In this document: in pieces, positions 5,161 through 21,300 of the stretch
How the letters are laid out: the number at the start of each line of letters is the position of its first letter
Numbering within the stretch: the first letter of the stretch is position 1
Assembly: GCF_025602895.1 (NCBI RefSeq)
Contig: NW_026516555.1
Coordinates: 1-22,921, forward strand
DNA length: 22,921 nucleotides
Source: Polychytrium aggregatum
Lineage: Eukaryota > Chytridiomycota > Chytridiomycetes > Polychytriales
Direction of reading: 5' to 3'
The notes under the pieces: model-generated
The model's input: only the letters and a program-made list of their open reading frames with translations
What the model was told of the DNA's origin: nothing
The model's database searches: none
Position numbers and translations under genes: made by a program

Positions 5161-5402
5161 ATGAGTGGACCAGGCTCCAAGATGATCCGATGTGGGACAC
5201 CCGCTGGATCGAGCATCGATTCGGCGCATCTCGTGCAGTCCAAGGAGCGACTCCAACAACAGTCCGCCGACTCGTCGCTGGCTCTGATATCTTGTCCCGG
5301 CTGCCATCTGTCGTATATCGCGGGCGACGATCGAAATGTAGTCATTCTGCGCAGGCTATCGTCACTGATGGTGATTGACCCTGCGTTTACAGGCAATCCA
5401 AT

Positions 5403-5426
5403 AAAAAACGGGACACCCGGGTTTTT
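5403..5426. repeat. Left terminal inverted repeat with a hairpin
   Basis: 5403-5415 matches the complement of 8973-8985. The same end can also fold on itself: AAAAACGGG (5404-5412) pairs with CCC and GTTTTT (5416-5418, 5421-5426) around an ACA loop, leaving a two-base GG bulge. Confidence 0.7.
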
Positions 5427-5473
5427 GACCATTCATCGAATATTTTGTTACCCAATGTTATCGCGCGCTGGCC

Positions 5474-6445
5474 ATGACCATTCGCCACACATCCGACTTT
5501 CGCACCGCCGCATTGCGATGCTACGCCCTCATCCATAGCCTGCGTAAGGTTGCCACCATATTGAGTGTATCCAAGAGCACCACCCATCGATGGCACCGAG
5601 GATGCAAGCTGGATGACCCATCCCGGGTCCCAGCTCGCAGATCCACTTTCTTCGAGCAGGCATGTCCAGTCATTCGCACCCTGATTGAACAGGACCCGTT
5701 CCAGACTGGTCCTGTGTTGCGATGCAAGCTCGAGTCCATCCTCCAGAGGAAAGTTTCACTCTCACTCTGCCACACTGCCATCCAGCGAGCAGGTCTCTCA
5801 CACAAGAGGGCAACACACCTCTACAAGTCCAAGCGACTGGATGAGCGAGTGGCACAGTTCAGGGACCAGGTCCGCTCCATCGACCCACGACGATTCGTTT
5901 TTGTCGATGAGACAGGGATCAGGAGATCCATTTTCCCTCTTTACGGATACTCACCGAAGGGCGTCCCACTCCGTCAGCGCAATCACATGAAACACAAGTC
6001 TGTCTCAGCTGCATTTGCCATCAACCACTCTGGTGTGCTGCATCGCATGTACATCCCCACATCATTCAAGACACACTCGATGGTCGAGTTCTTTGAGCGA
6101 GCGAGCTTCCCAGATGACTCTGTGATTGTGATGGACAATGTCAGCATGCACAAGACAATGGCTGTCCTGGACTGCATCGAGCGCCGAGGATGGTCAGTGA
6201 TCTTCACCCCACCTGCCTCGCCCGACTTCAATCCCATCGAGAACTTCTTTGGGGTTGAGTCCCCATCATTTTGGGATTTAGTCCCCCAATCACGCCGCCA
6301 TTTTCGCGTTCACATCCCTGGCTTGAACCTCTCGGCGATTTTTGAACAGGTCGCTTCCCCAACCAGCCCGCGCAGACGGGTTCCTGCTCTCGGGTATAAA
6401 TGCCACACCTTCGTCCTGCTGCTTTCTTCCCTCATCTCGCCTTGA
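5474..6445 (+). CDS. IS630/Tc1-mariner DDE transposase, C-terminus lost or replaced
   Basis: Cut-and-paste transposase. The N-terminus (about residues 1-45) is a helix-turn-helix (SLRKVATILSVSKSTTHRW). The RNase H-like catalytic core follows, with Asp145 in FVFVDETGI, Asp221 in VIVMDNVSMHK and Glu256 in PDFNPIENFF. The spacing between the second and third acid is 34 residues, the DD34E class of Tc1/IS630. The family normally carries some tens of residues after this glutamate. Here homology stops at about codon 259 (position 6250) and the frame continues into unrelated sequence that includes two small hairpins and the TATA box of the next gene. The ORF's tail from 6251 to its stop at 6445 is probably not native. 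Function is doubtful: all three catalytic acids are present but the C-terminal helices are missing. Confidence 0.82.
   Translation: MTIRHTSDFRTAALRCYALIHSLRKVATILSVSKSTTHRWHRGCKLDDPSRVPARRSTFFEQACPVIRTLIEQDPFQTGPVLRCKLESILQRKVSLSLCHTAIQRAGLSHKRATHLYKSKRLDERVAQFRDQVRSIDPRRFVFVDETGIRRSIFPLYGYSPKGVPLRQRNHMKHKSVSAAFAINHSGVLHRMYIPTSFKTHSMVEFFERASFPDDSVIVMDNVSMHKTMAVLDCIERRGWSVIFTPPASPDFNPIENFFGVESPSFWDLVPQSRRHFRVHIPGLNLSAIFEQVASPTSPRRRVPALGYKCHTFVLLLSSLISP
6251..6285. repeat. Two tandem small hairpins at the transposase break
   Basis: GGGGTTGAGTCCCC (6251-6264) and GGGATTTAGTCCC (6273-6285) are similar in sequence, and each can pair its G run with its C run. They begin exactly where transposase homology ends, so they may mark an insertion or recombination terminus. 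Confidence 0.55.
6395..6400 (+). promoter_or_regulatory. TATA box of the Fanzor gene
   Basis: TATAAA in the context CGGGTATAAATG, 130 bp before the Fanzor start codon. This would give a leader of about 100 nt. It lies inside the non-homologous tail of the transposase ORF. Confidence 0.55.
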
Positions 6446-6529
6446 TCGGATCATCGCGCCATTGTACGATAAAAAAAAGTCTCTGCTCTGACCAGTACCA
6501 CTGGCAGGCATCCAGCATCCTCTGCCCCC

Positions 6530-8900
6530 ATGCCTCCGAAGCGTAAGGGTACCGGTGATGGCCAGCCTCGGCCACCCAGGCCCAAGAAAGCCAAGTCACA
6601 GTCGGAGCCTGTCTCTGGTTCGTATTCTGATCCCACGCATGCTTGTTTCTCTGTTGCTCCGTCGCTCACCACCACTGCTTCTGCAGATCCAATGGATGTC
6701 GATCCCACCGAGCCTGGTCCATCTACTTCCTCGAGTACTGGCAAGCGATGTCGCCAGTGCGATGGCACCGATCACGAACGTTGCAACACCAGCAAATGTC
6801 CCAAATACCTGCCCCTCAAGAGTTCTGTCGTCCCACTCGTGGATGGAAGGTCATCGGCCCCTCAGTTCAGCTGCTTCAAGCAGACGATGGATGGCTGTTG
6901 TCTCAATCCCGCTCTCCGCGACAAGATCCAGGCCACCGTCGAGGCCATGACCCAGATCCAGTTCGAGGCATCCAGGCTGCTCAACCTGCACATCCTCCGG
7001 TGCATCGAGCAGGATCTTCCCGTCCCTGTCATCTCCAAGTCCACCCCTGCTTTCATCCGCCAATGCTTTAAGATCGTCCAGGCCGATGCCCTCTCGCCGA
7101 CCGGGGACAATGAGAAATACAACGAGCATCTGGTCGCTTCCTTTGGCATCTACCAGTCCACTCGGCACGCAGACCTGCCTCCGGCCCCTCGTCTGCCTGA
7201 TGGTGCTCACAGTCAGCTTCTCACACTGGCTGTCAATGCCTATGCCACCAACTGCACCACCCACCTCGACCTGGCCTACTGGCGACTCCTTCGCCGCTTC
7301 TGTGCTGCCGTCTTCCCAGCCAACAAGCATAAGCACGACGCCATCGAGGCCTGTCTCGAGCTCTTCGAGAAACCAGGGCAGACTCCACCCAAGGCCGATA
7401 TCGAGTTCCTCTATCCAGACTTTGGCCACATCCTGGACGAGTTTCGCTACAGCAGCGACCAGGACCGCTTCCGGGCCCTCCATCGCCTCTCACACCATGT
7501 GAGAATCCTCGCTCGAGACAAGATGGTCGACAATGTCCACAAGTGGATCGACTGTGACATGCCCGCCCTCCGAGTCACCGAGCTGCAGCGCCAGGCCAAG
7601 CTGGACGAGCTCACTGCCAGAGGCATCCCCTCCGACGACAAGAGGTTCACCACGGCCAAGTCTGAGCTCGGCACCACCAAGTCCAAGATCAACAAGCTGG
7701 CATCCAGGATCAACTGGGCACTCAAGCAGCTCGCTCTCGACACTCCTCCGGCCGTGTGCACGATGGTCCCTCTGTGCACTGCCAAGGCCAAGTATGTCAA
7801 GATCGACACCGTCGCACTCTGGGAGCTCCTGGGTCCAAAGAAGCGCCTTGACCTCACCCGGGACAAGCTCAAGGAAGAAGGTGAGGACGGTGTCAACAAC
7901 CAGGATGGTCTCTGGCGCAGTTGCTTCAAGCTGCGTAGTTCCCTCTTCCAAGAGCGGGACGTGAACAAGAAGCTGTTCAACTACGAGATCAGCACCGATG
8001 GCATTGGATGCACCATCGGCCTCGTCAAGTTTGTGCGTCGAACCGATCACACCGAGACCATCGAGCCTCCTCCGACTGCCGAGCAGCGCATCCAGACCCA
8101 CATCGGCGACCCAGACCCCAACAGGACCACTTGGATTGGCATCGATCCTGGAGTCGGCTCCATCTTCACGGCGGTCATCCAAGCACCGGGCCACCAAGAC
8201 GAGGTGGTCTCATTCTCCAACGGCCACTCAGCACATGTGTGGCCATACGTCCAATACTGAGTGGCACAACACCATGAAGTATCGACTCGACATCGAGACC
8301 TGGATATCGACCACCCCCTCGCCCAAGGTGTCGTCCTCGGAGGCTTTCAAGGTCCATCTCACCCATGTCCTGCGACCGGAACTTCGAGTGCAGCTCGACT
8401 TCCACCTTGGCAAGAAGGCCCGTCACCATCGCTTCACGGGCCACAAGAGGCGCCAAGTGGCCGTCGACAGGATGTGCAAGGCCGTCCTGAAGCACGCCCC
8501 AATACGGACCGATGTGGTGATCGCCTTTGGCAATGCGTCATGGCGACAAGGCAAGGGCTATGCATCCAGCCCTCGGAGGCAGCGGTTTGCTCGGTACTTT
8601 GAGCAATTCGAGCACCACCGACGCCGTCCCAATCACCCTCACGGAAGTGTCAAGGTGGCCTCGACGAACGAGTTCAACACCTCGCAAGTGTGCTCCAAGT
8701 GCCTGGAGCCAGTTCGGTTGGAAGGACTCGATGCGCCCAGTGTTGCGAATTCCCACTTTGTCAGGAGCTGCAAGAATCCCAGCTGCCGGACGGTGTGGAA
8801 TCGCGACGTCAATGCGGCGCGCAACATGATCACAGTATGCAGGTCGATTGTGGAGATCGGAGAGCGACCGGCGGTCTTCACTCGGAGGCTGCCAAAGTGA
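6530..8900 (+). CDS. Fanzor RNA-guided nuclease (eukaryotic TnpB homologue), one internal +1 frame change
   Basis: Predicted RNA-guided DNA endonuclease, about 789 aa if the frame is rejoined. The start at 6530 precedes a basic, nuclear-signal-like N-terminus (MPPKRKG, PKKAK). A Cys/His cluster CRQCDGTDHERCNTSKC lies at residues 74-90. After a long helical region comes RuvC-I, WIGIDPGVGS with Asp539. Frame 2 then ends at TGA 8258-8260. The next frame resumes without a gap at 8259 (EWHNTMKYRLD) and supplies the rest: SSSEAFKVHLTHVL, the RuvC-II strand VVIAFGNASW without an acidic residue, then STNEFNTSQVC with Glu714, and a zinc finger Cys721-x2-Cys724 and Cys747-x4-Cys752. RuvC-III, WNRDVNAARNM with Asp759, follows. 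A missing RuvC-II glutamate with a substitute glutamate just before the zinc finger is the published Fanzor pattern, so the family call is secure. Whether full-length protein is made depends on the 8258 site. Confidence 0.88.
8255..8261 (+). other. In-frame UGA with +1 continuation (TAC TGA G)
   Basis: Skipping the single T at 8258 turns Tyr-stop into Tyr-Glu-Trp-His and opens 213 further codons holding two of the three RuvC motifs. Three explanations are possible: a one-base insertion, programmed +1 frameshifting at a stop codon, or removal of an intron. A 58-nt GTGG...TGAG segment at 8204-8261 would also restore the frame. However, it would delete the conserved-looking VVSFSNGH strand, and its donor is weak. 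Confidence 0.6.
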
Positions 8901-8922
8901 TCTGTTTTATTTCTTGTGGCTT

Positions 8923-8937
8923 TGCTTGACGCAAGCA
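8923..8937 (+). repeat. Hairpin TGCTTG-ACG-CAAGCA
   Basis: A perfect six-base stem with a three-base loop, 23 bp after the Fanzor stop codon and 36 bp before the right terminal repeat. Confidence 0.75.
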
Positions 8938-8972
8938 CAGCATATACTACCTGTTCATGGAAACGGCTATAT

Positions 8973-8986
8973 TGTCCCGTTTTTTT
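8973..8986. repeat. Right terminal inverted repeat
   Basis: TGTCCCGTTTTTTT. The first 13 bases are the exact reverse complement of 5403-5415. Confidence 0.75.
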
Positions 8987-9319
8987 CTGAATAAAGTGTA
9001 TGACCATGAGCCGCTTCACTTGGATCAGCACCACAGCCATTATCGAGAGTGGGAAAGCACCTGGCCAGTATGATCCTGCTGTAAGCGGATTGGGCAGACC
9101 CAGTTGGGAAGGTTTGTGACGTCACCGAACCATATCTCGGCAGGTTGCTGGATCGATGAGCGGACCCACTTACCACTCTGGATGTAGCCGATGTTCACGT
9201 CTCGTTGCCGCACATCAAGCACTGCTGGCTTGCTCACCCTCGGCCTGGCAGCTTTGCTCCTTGATTACACTTGCATCTCGTATCCATTCATTTCTATCGC
9301 GTCTTGATCGTCACCTGGA
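8987..9319. other. Intergenic flank; polyadenylation-like signal and an unassigned minus-strand frame
   Basis: AATAAA at 8990-8995 could serve as the Fanzor polyadenylation signal. On the minus strand, 9237-9040 reads an open frame containing IGYIQSGKWVRSSIQQ and AEIWFGDVTNLPNWV. It looks protein-like but I recognise no family; it could be a gene remnant. The rest should hold the promoter of the next plus-strand gene. Confidence 0.4.
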
Positions 9320-12048
9320 ATGCAACTCAAGAACTATCCACTCGGGTTCAGGGACCATCAGGTACGATGCAACATCTCCACAGATTCTCGATAGGCGACA
9401 CTCCGGTTGATGCACTTATTCGCGACCTCAATTCTATGCATGCCTCCAGTTCCCATTAACTCGCACTGACGGCTACTTTCTCGTCTGCAGCTAGAAGACG
9501 AGTGGTCACGGTACGATAGATACTCCGAACGTGGGCTCTACATCCATGTCGCGTTTTCCCTCGTATACATTCTGCACCAGGTTGCCATCCAATTGTTTAC
9601 GACCTTCGATATATCTGGTGCGTCTATGCGATCAAATATCGAGTCCGGAGACAGAATATCTCGGGGCTCTGTGGGGTCCAAAATATCACCCGCTTGTCCT
9701 CGAGTCACATCTCCCCACATTATATCGTGGCCCACTGTGTATTAAACTCTATCCGCTGGTAATTTCCACTTATATGTCACTGAAACGACCAACGCAGAGA
9801 TTCCCGCGTGTTCGGCCTGTGCATTGCTTTTGCTCGCAAGTCTGATTCCAAGCTGGCTTTGGAATATCCGAACGCTTCACAATGAGCTGGCGATGGCCGT
9901 GTTCGTGTCGATTTCGGCAACCATCTTATGGACGATGGCCGAGGGCGGCTTGGCTTCAAACAAGGGCCTTGGCCTGTTTTGCATCCTGGCCATCTATCGT
10001 GGAAACACAGTCGCAATGCCTCCGCTACTGGTGCTCTTCGTCGTTGCCATTATTTCTATCGGGGAAATCGAGGACGCACCAATGTCTCCACTCAGCCGAA
10101 GTTCAATGTATTTGTTCTGGATATGCATCGGCTTCTTGGGAAGATTCCACTCATTCCATGGGGTATGCATACCATCGTCTGTCAACCGTAGTTCGGCGGC
10201 GCTACTGATGAAATTGATCATATGGAGACCATGTATCGCTCAACTATGCAACAAACTTGAAGCACTCATAAGCCATCTCCACAGGAAATAGCAAGACGGA
10301 AAACCTTTTGGATTGCAAGGACACTTGACGAGACACACAATCTGCCGCTTCCCCATCAATATCTTTGTGCCGAGATTCCTCGATGGTTCACGGAACGGAA
10401 TCTCAGCGGAGATTTTATCTACCCAATCGCTCAGTTTGCCCCGAAGCCACCGAGCCGGCGCTCGGGATGGACAAATTGTCTCCTCCGATTCTCAAAATGG
10501 GAACTCGAGATGGAATACAAAAGGTGACCAGCGCTGTCGGTGGCTGTGCAGCAGTGATGTGGATTGTTGGTGGATGTGTGGGGGAGGGTATGTGCAATGG
10601 ATGTACGTGTACGATGGGTGCATTGATGTGTGATAGATGCGTTGGTGCCGAGAAGTGTACTGCGTAGCGAAGTTCTCGTTGAGATGTTGTTGCGCGAAGA
10701 TTCGAGCGAATGCTTGTGCTGTTGGTATCCTGTGCTGTTGGTATCCTGTGCTGTTAGTATCCCTGTGCTGTTGGTATCGGAAATGTCCTCGATTATCTGT
10801 GATAGAATGGCAGATAACGTTGTTTGGAACTCTGGCTCGACTGTGGTCACCTATGATGCTATGGTTGCTCATTCCGCTCGTCGGCGGTTCGATGGGTTTG
10901 ATACGCTGCTCACTCACTTTGCCACCACCGCAATACCACAACACCACAACACCACAACACCGCAACACCACAACACCGCAACACCGCAACACCACTCTCA
11001 TTCCTCGATCGGTGGCCCGATCACATCTGCCGCCGACAACAGCGACTCGATCCCAACCTCGATTCGCCTCCACTTTGGCACCACCCTGATCAACTTGCTC
11101 TTCACACTTCCCACCATCATCCTCGACTACTACGCTGCTCAGAGTCTCGGCAATCCGCTGTTGATCACACTCACACGCTACCTGCTGGTCTACTTTCCAA
11201 TTGTCCTGGTCGTCCCGAGCGCTCTCCTGTCACTGACGTCGATCCGGAAGTCGGTCCAGGCCGTCCAGACAGTGATTGCGACGATCCACATCTGCAACAT
11301 CGGGGGATGCCTTGTCCGGCACGGACTGGTTCTGGTCTCTGGAGAATCGGGCCTGACACTGTTTGCGACAAGTCTCTCGCAACTGATCTTCTCGACATTT
11401 GTGGCATCGACATCGGGGATCTCGGTGCAAACTCTCGTTCCAATCGTCTGGCTATGCGTTTGTGCACATGCCGGGCTTGTTTTAGGATTGCCAAATGGAT
11501 TTGGCGACATTCGGTACAGCATCCTTATGGTTGCTGTCGTCGGGATAGTTGTGTCGGTCTCTGCCTCCATCAACGAACACGAACATCGAAAGCTCTTCTT
11601 TCTCGAAAAGTGGTCTAAATCATACCAGCCAAAGTCTCGGGAAGCCATTCAGTTTCCACCCGAATTTTCTGATTTCACCGAGTCGCAGTACTACTCAACA
11701 GTATCGAGCGAAAATTCGACTGGGTCAAAGTCTAGAAGAGAGTCTACCTTTTCCGATATGGATGTGTGGGGCTCACGCTCACTCGCGGCTTCCCGCAACC
11801 AAAGTGTACGGCGGCCCATGCCATTTCCGGCGCTCTATGTCGTCAATGCTTCGTCGATCAGTTCAGGGCTCGGTTCTACATCAAACGATATTGTGTATAT
11901 GGAGCGACATGACGGAGTACTAAGGGCCGTTCCAAGGGGAAATAGCCAGCACCGCTCGGAAGAAGCACAGCCAAAGTCGCAGATGGGCCCAAGTCCGATC
12001 GGAAGCGAGTGTTGCTCGGTAGTCGAAGAGCATATCCACCCAGAGTAG
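9320..12048 (+). CDS. Unrecognised polytopic membrane protein, about 671 aa (paralogue A), five exons
   Basis: Exons: 9320-9361, 9491-9617, 9798-10162, 10285-10523 and 10806-12048. All junctions are GT-AG and phases agree throughout. The ATG at 9320 is the first after an in-frame TGA at 9305. The N-terminal motif YPLGFRDHQ-LEDEW is followed by about six hydrophobic segments (for example IHVAFSLVYILHQ and PPLLVLFVVAIISIG). Next comes a soluble exon with RWFTERNLSGDFIYP, a His/Asn/Thr/Gln repeat loop, and about six more hydrophobic segments (INLLFTLPTIILDYYA, YLLVYFPIVLVV and others). The cytosolic-looking tail is Ser-rich and contains FPALYVVNASSIS. The 6+6 layout recalls membrane cyclases or transporters, but I see no catalytic domain and do not assign a family. 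The match in exon lengths with the next gene (42, 127/130, 365, 239) strongly supports this model. Confidence 0.75.
10715..10778 (+). repeat. 16-bp minisatellite in intron 4 of paralogue A, four units
   Basis: The unit is TGTGCTGTTGGTATCC, with one A variant and one extra C. Paralogue B has five units. The 16-bp step is not a multiple of three, which supports an intronic location. Confidence 0.9.
10935..10995 (+). repeat. Coding 9-bp repeat (CAACACCAC/CAACACCGC), paralogue A
   Basis: Encodes a low-complexity His-Asn-Thr-Pro-Gln loop (IPQHHNTTTPQHHNTATPQ) just before the second membrane bundle. It is identical in paralogue B at 14451-14511. Confidence 0.8.
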
Positions 12049-12822: not shown

Positions 12823-15570
12823 ATGCTGCTCAAGCGTTACTCGCTCCGATTCAAGGACTCGCTGGCAAGTGTGTTGATAGTTGCGACAGTATAGATGATA
12901 ATGAACGAGCAATGGAGTGTTGGTGTTTGACTGGTCGGCATGACCCACGCGAATGTTGGGGCGCTTCCAAACCGAAAGACTCTTCAGAATGCCTCCGCCG
13001 TTGTTCCGACGAAGGTGGCTCAGGCATCTTGCGTGGATACTATACCATGGACGTGCCGGCTAATATGTCGCCGTCGTCCGGCATTTGGAAACCGGTTTCA
13101 TTTACTGAACGGACAAGCAGCTGGAAGCCGAGTGGCAGACCTTCCTCAGCACCTCTTGGCATCCAGCTACGACAAGAAGTATACTATTCGGTCTCTGTGC
13201 GCTCTCTCGGGGAATCTTGATGCTCGTTCGGCAGCGTGCCGAGCCGTGGGGTGGGTACCACTGTGTCGAAACTAGCAGCTCGGTCGCTTGACCTTCGGTC
13301 CGAGGCATCTAATCGCTGTTTCAACCCGGCCTGCCGTTTTCAGCGATCATGTCATTGGCCTCAAGTACAGCCGTTTCCATAGCATCTCTCTTGTACTGCG
13401 CCAATAGAGCGGTCCAGAGTGTTCAGGAATCAGCTATCTTGCTGGCGGTAGCATGTTTCCTGGCTTCACGTTTATGGGAAGCAGCCACTCTCGCCCAGCC
13501 CATATGGAATAGCTCAGGTCTATTCGCAGTTGCTGCTATCAGTCAGAGATATCCTGCCACAGTCCATTGCCTACTTTCTATCGACCTTGTCGCCAACATT
13601 TTCGTGAGTGAGCTAGGCAATTCCGCCGAACCAGGGACGGTCCGCAGCGCCGCGTATATCGGGGCAGTACTCGTCGCGCTCTTGGGATGCATGGTGAGCT
13701 ATCGTCAGGTAGGCATCGCCGGCTGTGGTAGCTCAGAGCGAACTCAAAATCCGGCACGACTAATCAATGTACTCAATTCGATAGGAATGGACGAGCCGCA
13801 TGATATTCTGGGTGGCTCGCACAATGCACGAAACACGGCCGCAGTTTGGGCTCTCCGAAGCGGCGTTTTTGGAGCTATCACGGTGGTTCACGGAACGGAA
13901 CCTCAGCGGAGATTTTATCTACCCAATCGCTCAGTTTGCCCCGAAGCCACCGAGCCGGCGTTCTGGATGGACAAACTGTCTCCTCCGATTCTCAAAATGG
14001 GAACTCGAGATGGAATACAAAAGGTGACCAGCGCTGTCGGTGGCTGTGCAGCAGTGATGTGGATTGTTGGTGGATGTGTGGGGGAGGGTATGTGCAATGG
14101 ATGTACGTGTACGATGGGTGCATTGATGTGTGATAGATGCGTTGGTGCCGAGAAGTGTACTGCGTAGCGAAGTTCTCGTTGAGATGTTGTTGCGCGAAGA
14201 TTCGAGCGAATGCTTGTGCTGTTGGTATCCTGTGCTGTTGGTATCCTGTGCTGTTGGTATCCTGTGCTGTTAGTATCCCTGTGCTGTTGGTATCGGAAAT
14301 GTCCTCGATTATCTGTGATAGAATGGCAGATAACGTTGTTTGGAACTCTGGCTCGACTGTGGTCACCTATGATGCTATGGTTGCTCATTCCGCTCGTCGG
14401 CGGTTCGATGGGTTTGATACGCTGCTCACTCACTTTGCCACCACCGCAATACCACAACACCACAACACCACAACACCGCAACACCACAACACCGCAACAC
14501 CGCAACACCACTCTCATTCCTCGATCGGTGGCCCGATCACATCTGCCGCCGACAACAGCGACTCGATCCCAACCTCGATTCGCCTCCACTTTGGCACCAC
14601 CCTGATCAACTTGCTCTTCACACTTCCCACCATCATCCTCGACTACTACGCTGCTCAGAGTCTCGGCAATCCGCTGTTGATCACACTCACACGCTACCTG
14701 CTGGTCTACTTTCCAATTGTCCTGGTCGTCCCGAGCGCTCTCCTGTCACTGACGTCGATCCGGAAGTCGGTCCAGGCCGTCCAGACAGTGATTGCGACGA
14801 TCCACATCTGCAACATCGGGGGATGCCTTGTCCGGCACGGACTGGTTCTGGTCTCTGGAGAATCGGGCCTGACACTGTTTGCGACAAGTCTCTCTCAACT
14901 GGTCTTCTCGACATTTGTGGCATCGACATCGGGGATCTCGGCGGAAACATCTATTCCGATGATCCTCCTGTCAGCGACCGCATACATATTTCTCGCGGCC
15001 TTTCTCTCGCCTTCACACGCTCTCACGGTTCATGGCATCCAGGCCGAAGCCCTTGCTGCTCTCACAACTGTGATAACGGCCGGTATTGTCGAACATGGCC
15101 AACGGAGACTCTTCCTCATTCGTCGGTGTGCTGACATCATATCAAAATATGCAACCCAGCAGTCTGTTGTCGATCACGACGAGCTCTCGTCGGTGTCACC
15201 TATGAGTTCGCAAGTGCTATCGTCAAACAGCGACCCGATTCCCACATCCAAATCGTTTAAATCGTCGTCGAGCAAATCCTCAGCGCGGTACTCACGCTCG
15301 ATATCTGCTACTCAGTCGCTGGGATCCAAGGTGGCGCCTCAGCGTCAGTTCCCCCAGCTAGTCGTGGTCAACGCCTCGTCGATCTTGTTAGAATCTCCAT
15401 CGAGCAGCCAAATCTCGTTCCAACCCTCTCTCGGCATAGCAGATACGCTCACAAGAGACGATGTATACAGCACCGAAGAGATTGCCAGAACATCAGCCAC
15501 TTCCAACCAGGACCAAAGCAGCCCTCAGCAGAGCCCCGATCTCGGCTTGCCGACAGCACCATGCCTGTAA
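12823..15570 (+). CDS. Unrecognised polytopic membrane protein, about 674 aa (paralogue B), five exons
   Basis: Exons: 12823-12864, 13121-13250, 13344-13708, 13785-14023 and 14322-15570. Exon 1 (MLLKRYSLRFKDSL) aligns without gaps to exon 1 of paralogue A (MQLKNYPLGFRDHQ) and is the same length. Its intron starts GCAAGT, a GC-AG intron, and exon 2 opens LEAEW against LEDEW in A. The other introns are GT-AG. Exon 3 is 365 nt in both genes although the proteins there are strongly diverged. Hydrophobic segments again suggest 6+6 (RSILFGLCALSRGILML, YIGAVLVALLGCMVSYR; then the shared second bundle). The tail differs from A but keeps FPQLVVVNASSIL. Tandem position and common structure point to duplication of one ancestral gene. 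The function is unknown. Confidence 0.75.
14215..14294 (+). repeat. 16-bp minisatellite in intron 4 of paralogue B, five units
   Basis: Same unit as at 10715-10778, with one additional copy. Confidence 0.9.
14451..14511 (+). repeat. Coding 9-bp repeat, paralogue B
   Basis: Same His/Asn/Thr/Gln-coding array as in paralogue A, with the same number of units. Confidence 0.8.
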
Positions 15571-18310: not shown

Positions 18311-21300
18311 TTACAACAGGAGCTCGGTGTACTTGGGGTAGGGCCAGTACTTGTCAGCAACCTGGGACTCGATGCTGCAGGGAAGGGTAGGTAATCAAGC
18401 CCGCGCGAGAGAGAGTGAGGATAAAAGTAGAGTCAGAAACGAGCTGCGAGTTGGGCAGTATGACATACACCTCCCACACATACTACACAATGCACACTCC
18501 GCCTCCCGTTCCGCTCTGTTTCGTTTCCCGAGGGTGCTGCGGATACACAAAACACTCGGCGACGCAGATGCACCCGTGCACGACGAGCAGCGGATCGAGT
18601 GCGGCGGCCAGATATCTAGAGAGCAGACACTTACACGTCGGTGGCAGCGCGAACTTCCTCCATGGCGGCAGTGAGCTCAGCCGAGCTGTAGTCGGCCTGG
18701 GCCTCGCCCTCGAGACCCTCGGCCTTGTCGATGACGCTGACGAGCTTGTCGTTGGCGGCGTTGAGGCGGTCGACCTGGCTCTTGAGTCTGGTCAGGATGG
18801 CCTTCTCGGGAGAGGTGGCAATGTCCTCGCCGACTTCCTTCAGGGTCTTGAGGGCGTCGGCCAGCTCCTTGCGGTAAGCAAAGGCAGCGGGCAGGACCGA
18901 CTGGACGGTCATGGTCTTGAGGGTATGGGCCTCGATCAGGAGGTCCTTGGCGTACTTTTCGACGAGGATGTGGTAGCGGGAGTGGAGCTCGGTCTCGGTG
19001 AAGATGCCAGTCTTGGTCAGGAGAGCAGCATGGCTGGGCTCGAGCAGCTGGCGGAAGGCAACGGGGCAGGACTTGATGTTGGGGAGGCCACGGCGAGCAG
19101 CCTCATCAACCCACTCCTGGGAGTAGTTGTTGCCCTCGAAGCGGACGCTCTTGGTCTGCTTGACAAAGTGGCGGATGACGTTGAGGATGTCGTCGACGGT
19201 GAGCTGGGGCTTGCTGCCCTTCTGCTTCTCCAGGGCCTCGGCGACGAGGTCGATCGAGGCAGCAACGGCAGCGTTGAGGAGAGCAACGGGGAAGGAGGGC
19301 GACTGCTTGGAGCCGACGGCACGGAACTCGAACTTGTTGCCGGTGAAGGCGAAGGGCGAGGTGCGGTTGCGGTCGGTCAGGTCACGGGCGATCTGAGGCA
19401 GGGTCGAGACCTTGAGGTCCAGGACAGTGCCGCCGACCTTGACAGACTCCATGTGGGGGCGCGAGAAGTTGCGGACGTCACGGAGCTCCTCGATCGAGTC
19501 CAGGACTTCGTTCAGGTGCTCGCCGAGGAAGGCCGAGATGATACCGGGAGGGGCCTCCTGGGCACCGAGGCGGTGCTCGTTGCTGGAGCTGGCAATACCG
19601 GCGCGGAGGAGACCAGCGTGCTTGTTGACGGCATCGAGGGTAGCGAGCAGGAAGAGCAGGAAGCGGTAGTTGGTCTCGGGCTTGGCGCTGGGGTCCAGCA
19701 GGTTCTCGCCGTTGTCGGTGGACATGGACCAGTTGCAGTGCTTGCCGCTGCCGTTGATGCCCTTGAAGGGCTTCTCGTGGAAGAGAACCTTGAGGCCATG
19801 GCGATGGGCAACCTGGTGGAGGGTCTCCATGGCGAGGAGGTTGTGGTCAACGGCGACCGAGGCCTCCTCGAAGATGGGGGCAAACTCAAACTGCTGGGGA
19901 GCGACCTCATTGTGTCTAGTCTTGACCGGGACACCGAGCTTGAAGAGCTCGAGCTCCATCTCACTAATGCAGGCCAGGACACGGCTGGGGATCTGGCCAA
20001 AGTAGTGGTCCTCGAGCTGCTGGTGCTTGGGGGGCATCGAGCCGATGAGAGTGCGGCCGGTGATCTTGAGATCGGGGCGGAGCTGGTACAGGGCGCGATC
20101 GATCAGGAAGAACTCCTGCTCGGTACCCAGGGTGGTGTACACGCGCTTGGTTTCGGTGTCGCCGAGAACACGGAGCAGGCGGAGGGCAGCGTTGGCCAGG
20201 GTCTCGGCCGAGCGCAGGAGGACGGTCTTCTCATCGAGAGCCTCGCCGTTGTAGGAGATGAAAACGGAGGGAATGTAGAGGACGTAGGTGCCATGGGGAC
20301 CCTTGCGGATGAACATGGGGCTGGTGGTGTCCCAGATGGTGTAGCCACGGGCCTCGAAGGTGGTGCGCATGCCACCGTTGGGGAAGGAGGAGGCATCGGG
20401 CTCGGACTGGAGGAGCTGGGATCCAGAGAAGGTGTCGATGGGAGAAGTCTACAGGCCGAAGAGCGGTGCGTTAGCATATCGGGCCGAGACAGACGATGCG
20501 GGCTCCCGACACGCTCATATCGGATGGATGCGATCCGACTGGCCGAGATCTGACGCTCAGAACAAAAGACATGGATGATCGTGCAAGGTGCAGGCGCAGG
20601 TAGGAAGGAGGCACGGGATAGTCACCTCATCGAGATCGCCGACGACAGTCTTCAGGGTCAGGAAGTTGTCGTGCTTCTCGGCAGTGGTTCCAGTCTGAGG
20701 CTGGAACCAGTGAGTGAAGTGGGTGGCACCACTGTCGATGAAGTCGATATGAAAAGTGAAATGAAGTCAGAAACGAACCCGATCAGGAAAGAGAGAAGAA
20801 AAAAAAAACGACAGGACACAGACGGACACAGAAAGAGCGAGGACCCCGAATGCGGTCGGCGAGAGAGAAGAAAGCGCGCGAGAAGCGGAGAATCAAGCCC
20901 CAGACAAGCAAGGATCTCGTGGTGGTGTGTCAGGAAGCGCAGCGGGCATTGGCGCTGGTGCGTCAGCGACCAAAGAAGGAAGGAAGGGAAGAAAAAGCAA
21001 TCTTTACCGGTCCATGGCCCAGACACGGACAGCGTGGGCGACGGCATCAGCGGTGGGGCGATCCAAAGTCTGTCTTCCCTGCGAGACGGCGGAACCAAAT
21101 GAGCAGGGTCAGCCACAGCGCGACAATCTTAAATCCAAAACCGACGAGAAGCGACCGGCTATCGACCGGCTATCGACCGGCTATCGACCGGTCATCGAAC
21201 CGGATGACGCCGCCGACAGCGAGCCACACGTCACGCGAAGAAGAAAAAAAGGAGGCTACGAAGAAAATGACAGACACGAGCGCCGCCAGAGTGAGGCTCA

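Follow-up and report, generated by a model that had tools for sequence, protein, structure and literature searches.

A Tc1/mariner transposon of Polychytrium aggregatum with a Fanzor1-like nuclease and a one-sided TTA at its insertion sites

What does an RNA-guided nuclease do for a transposon that carries a transposase of its own? The question is raised by a 22,921-nt stretch of the chytrid Polychytrium aggregatum (NW_026516555.1, positions 1 to 22,921; "the window" below), in which positions 5390-8998 (contig C283) are a Tc1/mariner (IS630) transposon carrying a DD34E transposase and a Fanzor1-like nuclease. Saito et al. call the role of Fanzor for its transposon unknown (PMC10432273). Nearly all copies of the element have a T before the left TA of the insertion site, and the mirror-image base on the right is infrequent. 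We consider it probable that this is a cut-and-paste mariner with a Fanzor and a 3′ guide RNA, in which the Fanzor would filter which insertions survive.

The element, its genes and its copies

TA lies on either side of the element, and its inverted arms at 5396-5415 and 8973-8992 are 85% complementary. The outer 26 nt of the left and right terminal inverted repeats (TIRs) match at 19 of 26 positions, and the outer halves differ. An earlier note on this DNA had described 13-bp inverted repeats framing the two genes, with ends at 5403 and 8986. The repeats are present and form the inner, better-matching portion of a longer imperfect TIR; the true ends lie 12-13 nt outward, at 5390 and 8998. The label "composite transposon" given there is wrong, as this is a single element with one pair of ends. 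We take these ends to be real, beyond chance, because the same ends bound 34 distinct sites, with a left TA at 34 of 34 and a right TA at 33 of 34. Of these sites, 26 came from DNA similarity, located with mismatch-tolerant patterns, and 8 from patterns in which the TA was fixed. The TIRs are common to the genomic copies, as expected of a Tc1/mariner transposon. Its features in the window are as follows.

5387..5389, + strand: predicted Fanzor target-adjacent motif (TAM) TTA, made up of T + TA; left-flank T in 80/83 distinct left ends
5388..5389, no strand: left TA target-site duplication; TA at 34/34 distinct sites
5390..5415, + strand: left TIR; 19/26 nt match to the right TIR
5474..6259, + strand: native part of the DD34E IS630/Tc1-mariner transposase; DDE_3 5.9e-21; the open reading frame continues to 6445 in a non-native tail
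6530..8900, + strand: Fanzor1-like gene, broken; Cas12f1-like_TNB 1.5e-9; frames 6530-8260 and 7998-8900
8834..9000, + strand: predicted omegaRNA (guide RNA scaffold), from the Fanzor 3′ end to the right TA; 5′ limit guessed from the shortest copies
8973..8998, + strand: right TIR; 170 genomic matches to the right-end pattern
8999..9000, no strand: right TA target-site duplication; TA at 33/34 distinct sites; predicted to be paired in the RNA scaffold stem
9001..9020, + strand: predicted guide (flanking DNA read into RNA), by analogy with SpuFz1 (PMC10432273); length guessed

Both genes of the window copy are broken, which the earlier note overlooked. The native C-terminus of the transposase is gone after NFFG through a deletion near 6260 (compared with copy L028, 126 gap positions in the compared interval), and the Fanzor gene has a 2-bp deletion near 8228, just past RuvC-I, compared with the same copy. 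In L028 the catalytic triad is D145, D221 and E256, with 34 residues between D and E; together with the DDE_3 domain, this spacing bears out the DD34E assignment made earlier. The L028 transposase scores 112.5 bits against NCBIfam transpos_IS630 (cut-off 100), and a candidate N-terminal helix-turn-helix DNA-binding domain matches HTH_23 with an E value of 0.0018 and 18.5 bits, below the cut-off of 24.6. A protein search with the transposase gave 33 relatives among 994 candidates, the best two being 35-36% identical.

The RuvC-I, RuvC-III and zinc-finger motifs reported for the second protein are likewise borne out by domain matches and residue positions. DPG is at 539 (RuvC-I), E715 precedes the CxxC zinc finger by six residues (Ealt), and D760 follows. 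DPG in RuvC-I and a rearranged glutamate, Ealt, before the zinc finger are a published Fanzor signature (PMC10711439). The published search pattern with fixed zinc-finger spacings did not match this Fanzor, and a relaxed version does. The Fanzor motif of Bao and Jurka, D-X(125-275)-[TS][TS]-XX-C4 zinc finger-X(5-50)-RD (PMC3627910), also matches when up to four residues are allowed in the second cysteine pair; the match ends at RD 760, and its leftmost start is D445, with D539 also in range. SpuFz1 (8gkh) was the best PDB match of a profile of six sequences (1.2e-6; GtFz1 only 0.49), and the single-sequence search of solved structures reached SpuFz1 at only E 0.31. Three proteins among 754 candidates were found with the C-terminal part of the Fanzor; one scan of viral contigs confirmed no relative, and the plasmid search gave no match. 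Pieces of the Fanzor C-terminus also lie inside two annotated P. aggregatum proteins, P0003 and P0004 (one a male-sterility-domain protein, one uncharacterised), perhaps gene-model fusions with transposon fragments. A Cys/His-rich N-terminal stretch is common to residues 70-95 of P0001 and the N-terminus of P0005, a 30%-identical metagenome Fanzor relative.

The genome assembly comprises 418 contigs and 64.7 Mb. A query of TA + left TIR, allowing at most two mismatches, has 339 matches in it, and the DNA search found 20 places that cover the query nearly end to end among the best 40 of 1,246 candidates. In other genomic copies, which the earlier note had proposed looking for, transposase and Fanzor again lie inside one pair of ends; they are not confined to separate elements with unrelated ends. 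Both genes are open within one element in L028 (C407; 310-aa transposase, 790-aa Fanzor) and in L040, which occupies the same site on another contig. Copy L074 has open frames of 310 aa for the transposase and 786 aa for the Fanzor. A sample of 30 copies was drawn by likeness to the window copy and is biased towards its transposase deletion; the Fanzor frame reaches at least 787 aa in 15 of them, and one of these (L028) also has a complete transposase. A search with the Fanzor C-terminus (the best 131 of 1,523 candidates, not a random sample) gave 130 tabulated frames, 90 of them at least 780 aa long. Copies that keep the 3′ part of the transposase are common, because 99 of 150 places in the DDE_3 search (the best 150 of 335 candidates) reach model position 135 or beyond.

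The one-sided TTA and its possible causes

Of 83 distinct left flanks, 80 have T before the TA (p 2.7e-69), against a background in which 12.1% of the TA dinucleotides in flanking DNA have T before them. These flanks come from 100 matches listed for the left-end pattern, which occurs at 141 places; the pattern needs a non-T base nine positions out, which has no bearing on the position of the T. On the right, the mirror-image A follows the TA in 15 of 86 distinct flanks, again among 100 matches listed, for a pattern with 170 places. Where both flanks of the same copy were read, at the 34 distinct sites, T was on the left in 32 and A on the right in 7 (p 4e-10). One position further out from the left T, C is rare (4/83).

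A one-sided TTA points away from a symmetric complex, because with symmetric choice half of the insertions should be reversed. A Fanzor that needs TTA beside its target would give this polarity, if the guide comes from the right flank as in SpuFz1. From the flanks, the TAM of this Fanzor is predicted to be 5′-TTA, and the polarised footprint is what retention by cutting of empty sites, suggested as a possibility in the earlier note, predicts, the cutting itself being putative. The same relation has been established in Spizellomyces punctatus, where SPu-1 has a conserved CA just before its left end and the TAM was measured as CATA (PMC10432273).

In the cycle we favour, the DD34E transposase would move the element by cut-and-paste into TA sites, and the guide of an RNA made at the right end would be the DNA immediately to the right of the insertion. 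The Fanzor would cut a matching empty site if 5′-TTA, the T plus the TA target, stood on its left, and repair from a filled copy would restore the element. Over time, insertions in a Fanzor-cuttable orientation and context would survive and others would be lost. RNA production, cleavage, repair and retention are steps that we infer.

The right end has properties consistent with a guide RNA. Nine short copies, six of 279-380 bp and three of 1,110 bp, have both ends and no complete gene, and in all nine the right end is preserved over at least 165 nt. The last 150 nt (window 8851-9000) are predicted to fold at −49 kcal/mol, better than shuffled sequences (z −2.6; an upstream coding stretch gave z −0.8), and the predicted structure places the terminal TA in a stem. 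In an IS607 TnpB, a fixed right-flanking base belongs to the RNA scaffold (PMC10711439), and by analogy the right TA may play that part here. An Rfam search with the predicted guide RNA returned no family, its sole match being unrelated and far below its gathering score.

Short copies that keep the 3′ region with no Fanzor gene would also be expected if the Fanzor acted mainly in trans, on other copies, or in regulation, on expression, the TTA footprint then being an ancestral co-adaptation and not a trace of ongoing empty-site cutting. In the same direction, 14 of the 30 copies in the biased sample have a Fanzor frame of at least 787 aa and no complete transposase. By itself, however, action in trans leaves unexplained the polarity of 96% against 17% at present insertion sites, and we regard it as quite improbable.

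Another possibility is that the Fanzor is a passenger, and that a transposase complex with unlike ends (left CAGGCAATCC, right CACTTTATTC) takes TTA in one direction. The difference between the outer halves of the TIRs, which match at 19 of 26 positions, would suit such a complex. So would the sister families, with left TIR CAGCGTTTCCAAAATGAAATGGG and other Fanzors and transposases, in which the base ahead of the left TA is T or A in 52 of the 59 distinct flanks among the matches listed. The CAGCGTTTCCAAAATGAAATGGG pattern occurs at 264 places; 100 matches were listed, and the 92 with TA give 66 distinct flanks (T 39, A 19, C 5, G 3). The GAAATGGG class accounts for 59 of these (T 36, A 16). 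Mariner transposases generally choose their targets symmetrically, which speaks against a one-way choice.

Copies in which the Fanzor has been exchanged also bear on the passenger explanation. In L075 (C96:12500-16900), the left 1,012 bp, including the transposase, are 95.75% identical to the window-element family, and the remainder has a different Fanzor (38-58% amino acid identity, in three main pieces) and a different right end. The earlier note had suggested that the Fanzor is cargo of the mariner or was captured by it, and this join directly supports capture or exchange. A left-end type with one base changed, CAGCC, occurs at 10 places, 8 of them distinct. Seven of the eight copies probed have the other Fanzor, 38-48% identical to that of the family, and the eighth matched neither Fanzor with the short probes used; in all six copies probed for it, the transposase DNA is 95-99% identical to that of family A. 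Where an almost unchanged transposase and a left TIR one base off are joined to another Fanzor, the bias is lost: T precedes the TA at 4 of 7 verified CAGCC sites against 80 of 83 (Fisher p 0.005). Adding L075, whose left target-site duplication reads GA, gives T at 5 of 8 (p 0.008), and adding the copy of unconfirmed Fanzor gives 4 of 8 (p 0.0008). The direction is that predicted by a Fanzor-specific motif and not by a transposase preference, in small numbers, and we judge the passenger explanation unlikely.

Two observations concern other left ends and Fanzors of the genome. L048 (C118) has a chimeric Fanzor, 69% identical to family A over residues 1-305 and 95% over 303-790, with a sister-family left end and the flank AATA. 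At about 41 of 100 matches listed for the left-end type TACAGTCWATCCAGAAAG, nearly the same nine bases precede the end (CRAKATACT or close), a pattern that copying of a single insertion within a larger repeat would give.

Several results weigh against retention by Fanzor cutting. The exchange comparison is small, at 7 sites, and T in 36 of 59 distinct left flanks of the sister families means that some T preference is not special to the family Fanzor. A Fanzor-free mariner family was sought through DDE_3 (the best 150 of 335 candidates), and no multi-copy control was found; Fanzor was present in five of the six DDE_3 regions read. A search of 21 joined sites for an intact empty allele gave none among the best 40 of 527 candidates, and the T in the target before insertion is therefore unseen. 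The window copy encodes neither enzyme whole. The Fanzor does not have a lower dN/dS ratio (nonsynonymous to synonymous substitution) than the transposase (0.32 against 0.27). Finally, covariation gives weak support to the predicted guide RNA, with two-sided changes in 4 of 28 consensus pairs and some pairs broken among five right ends of two families.

Some candidate controls and sites were set aside. The CAGCGTTTCCAAAATGAAATGGG sister family was rejected as a Fanzor-free control, with Fanzor-derived DNA in 17 of 20 copies read (blastn). L077 has the transposase only within the 4.4 kb fetched, and its left end is rearranged; the pattern for a rarer neighbour family occurs at 6 places, too few for use. 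The sole match spanning a possible empty site (C10, L047) proved to be a tandem-repeat relative of the L007 flank. A contrast in selection between Fanzor and broken transposases was uninformative, as truncated transposases still have a dN/dS of 0.23, perhaps from recombination among copies.

Alleles and recombination between copies

Several sites are present on two contigs with nearly identical flanks, and for this reason the assembly seems to hold, at least partly, both haplotypes of a diploid. Both alleles were compared at 12 sites, with 191 to 1,400 bp of flank per pair. The flanks are free of mismatches in eight of the 12 pairs; two pairs show 2 and 5 mismatches in 1,400 bp, and in two further pairs the mismatches of one right flank number 9/75 and 6/101. 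The pair L017/L020 also has 52 gap positions in a flank. The elements between these flanks differ by 0.4-3.6%, in patches, and internal gaps of at least 77 bp are present in 4 of 12 pairs (L004/L021, L011/L045, L029/L039 and L003/L043, the last of about 104 bp in adjoining pieces). Copies of 3,476 bp and 1,110 bp are alleles at one site. The insertion on C402 (L041) is at the same site as window 5390-8998, with 0 mismatches in 571 bp of flank and 64 in the element.

Across 26 copies at different sites, linkage between variable positions (r2) is 0.17 within 50 bp and drops to 0.04-0.05, near the chance level, at greater distances. Mosaic alleles and this decay fit pervasive conversion between copies, the expected outcome of repeated break repair, and they also fit short-read polishing. 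It is quite possible, at somewhat less than an even chance, that assembly or polishing produced both the allele differences and the missing linkage, in which case they say nothing about repair. Linkage reaches background within 50-150 bp, about the length of short reads. The internal gaps of at least 77 bp would be harder for polishing to make.

A stronger form of the retention reading is that the Fanzor rules the population genetics of its transposon. Insertions would then be kept only at places and in orientations that let the Fanzor cut the empty site, with TTA on the left, and repeated RNA-guided cutting and repair from other copies would shuffle the interiors until hundreds of dispersed copies formed an approximately freely recombining population. 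This is doubtful at present. If true, a eukaryotic transposon would live by cut-and-copy, with Fanzor modules exchanged like cassettes beside a single transposase.

Related systems and the rest of the window

The presence of a Fanzor and a mariner transposase in one element is already published: Bao and Jurka described Fanzor1 with a Tc/mariner transposase in PGv-1 and PUl-1 in 2013 (PMC3627910), and the element here is a further case. Like them, it combines a mariner transposase, a Fanzor of Fanzor1 type, TIRs and TA duplications; by description, it differs in its fungal host and high copy number, PGv-1 being described as single-copy. It resembles SPu-1/SpuFz1 of Saito et al. (2023, PMC10432273) in its chytrid host, its TA sites, its one-sided flank motif (CA in Spizellomyces punctatus SPu-1, T here) and its ghost copies that keep the guide-RNA end, a predicted one here. 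Saito et al. found no transposase between the inverted repeats of Spu-1 elements, whereas one is present here; the motif is TTA here and CATA in SPu-1, and sequence similarity to SpuFz1 is low. A further comparison system in the same paper also pairs a transposase with an RNA-guided nuclease and has a TAM at the insertion site, but its transposase chemistry is unrelated and the element here is eukaryotic. Titles and abstract openings of five papers on the P. aggregatum genome do not mention Fanzor, and the element may still be in other Fanzor catalogues.

One chytrid genome thus holds copies with both enzymes open, many further copies, short copies with the predicted guide end only, and natural Fanzor exchange. 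Should the TTA footprint reflect a TAM, it would be population-level evidence that a Fanzor shapes where its transposon survives. The element yields a precise prediction, a TAM of 5′-TTA and a guide directly after the right TA, and makes a tractable test case for what Fanzors do.

Elsewhere in the window, 18634-20370 on the minus strand encodes a type III glutamine synthetase in a 579-aa open frame, with Gln-synt_C and C-terminal domains and a partly matched N-terminal GSIII domain. A direct duplication, with its two parts at 10372-11014 and 13872-14530 and thus some 3.5 kb from each other, includes short tandem repeats; two 300-nt families within it are 97-100% identical.

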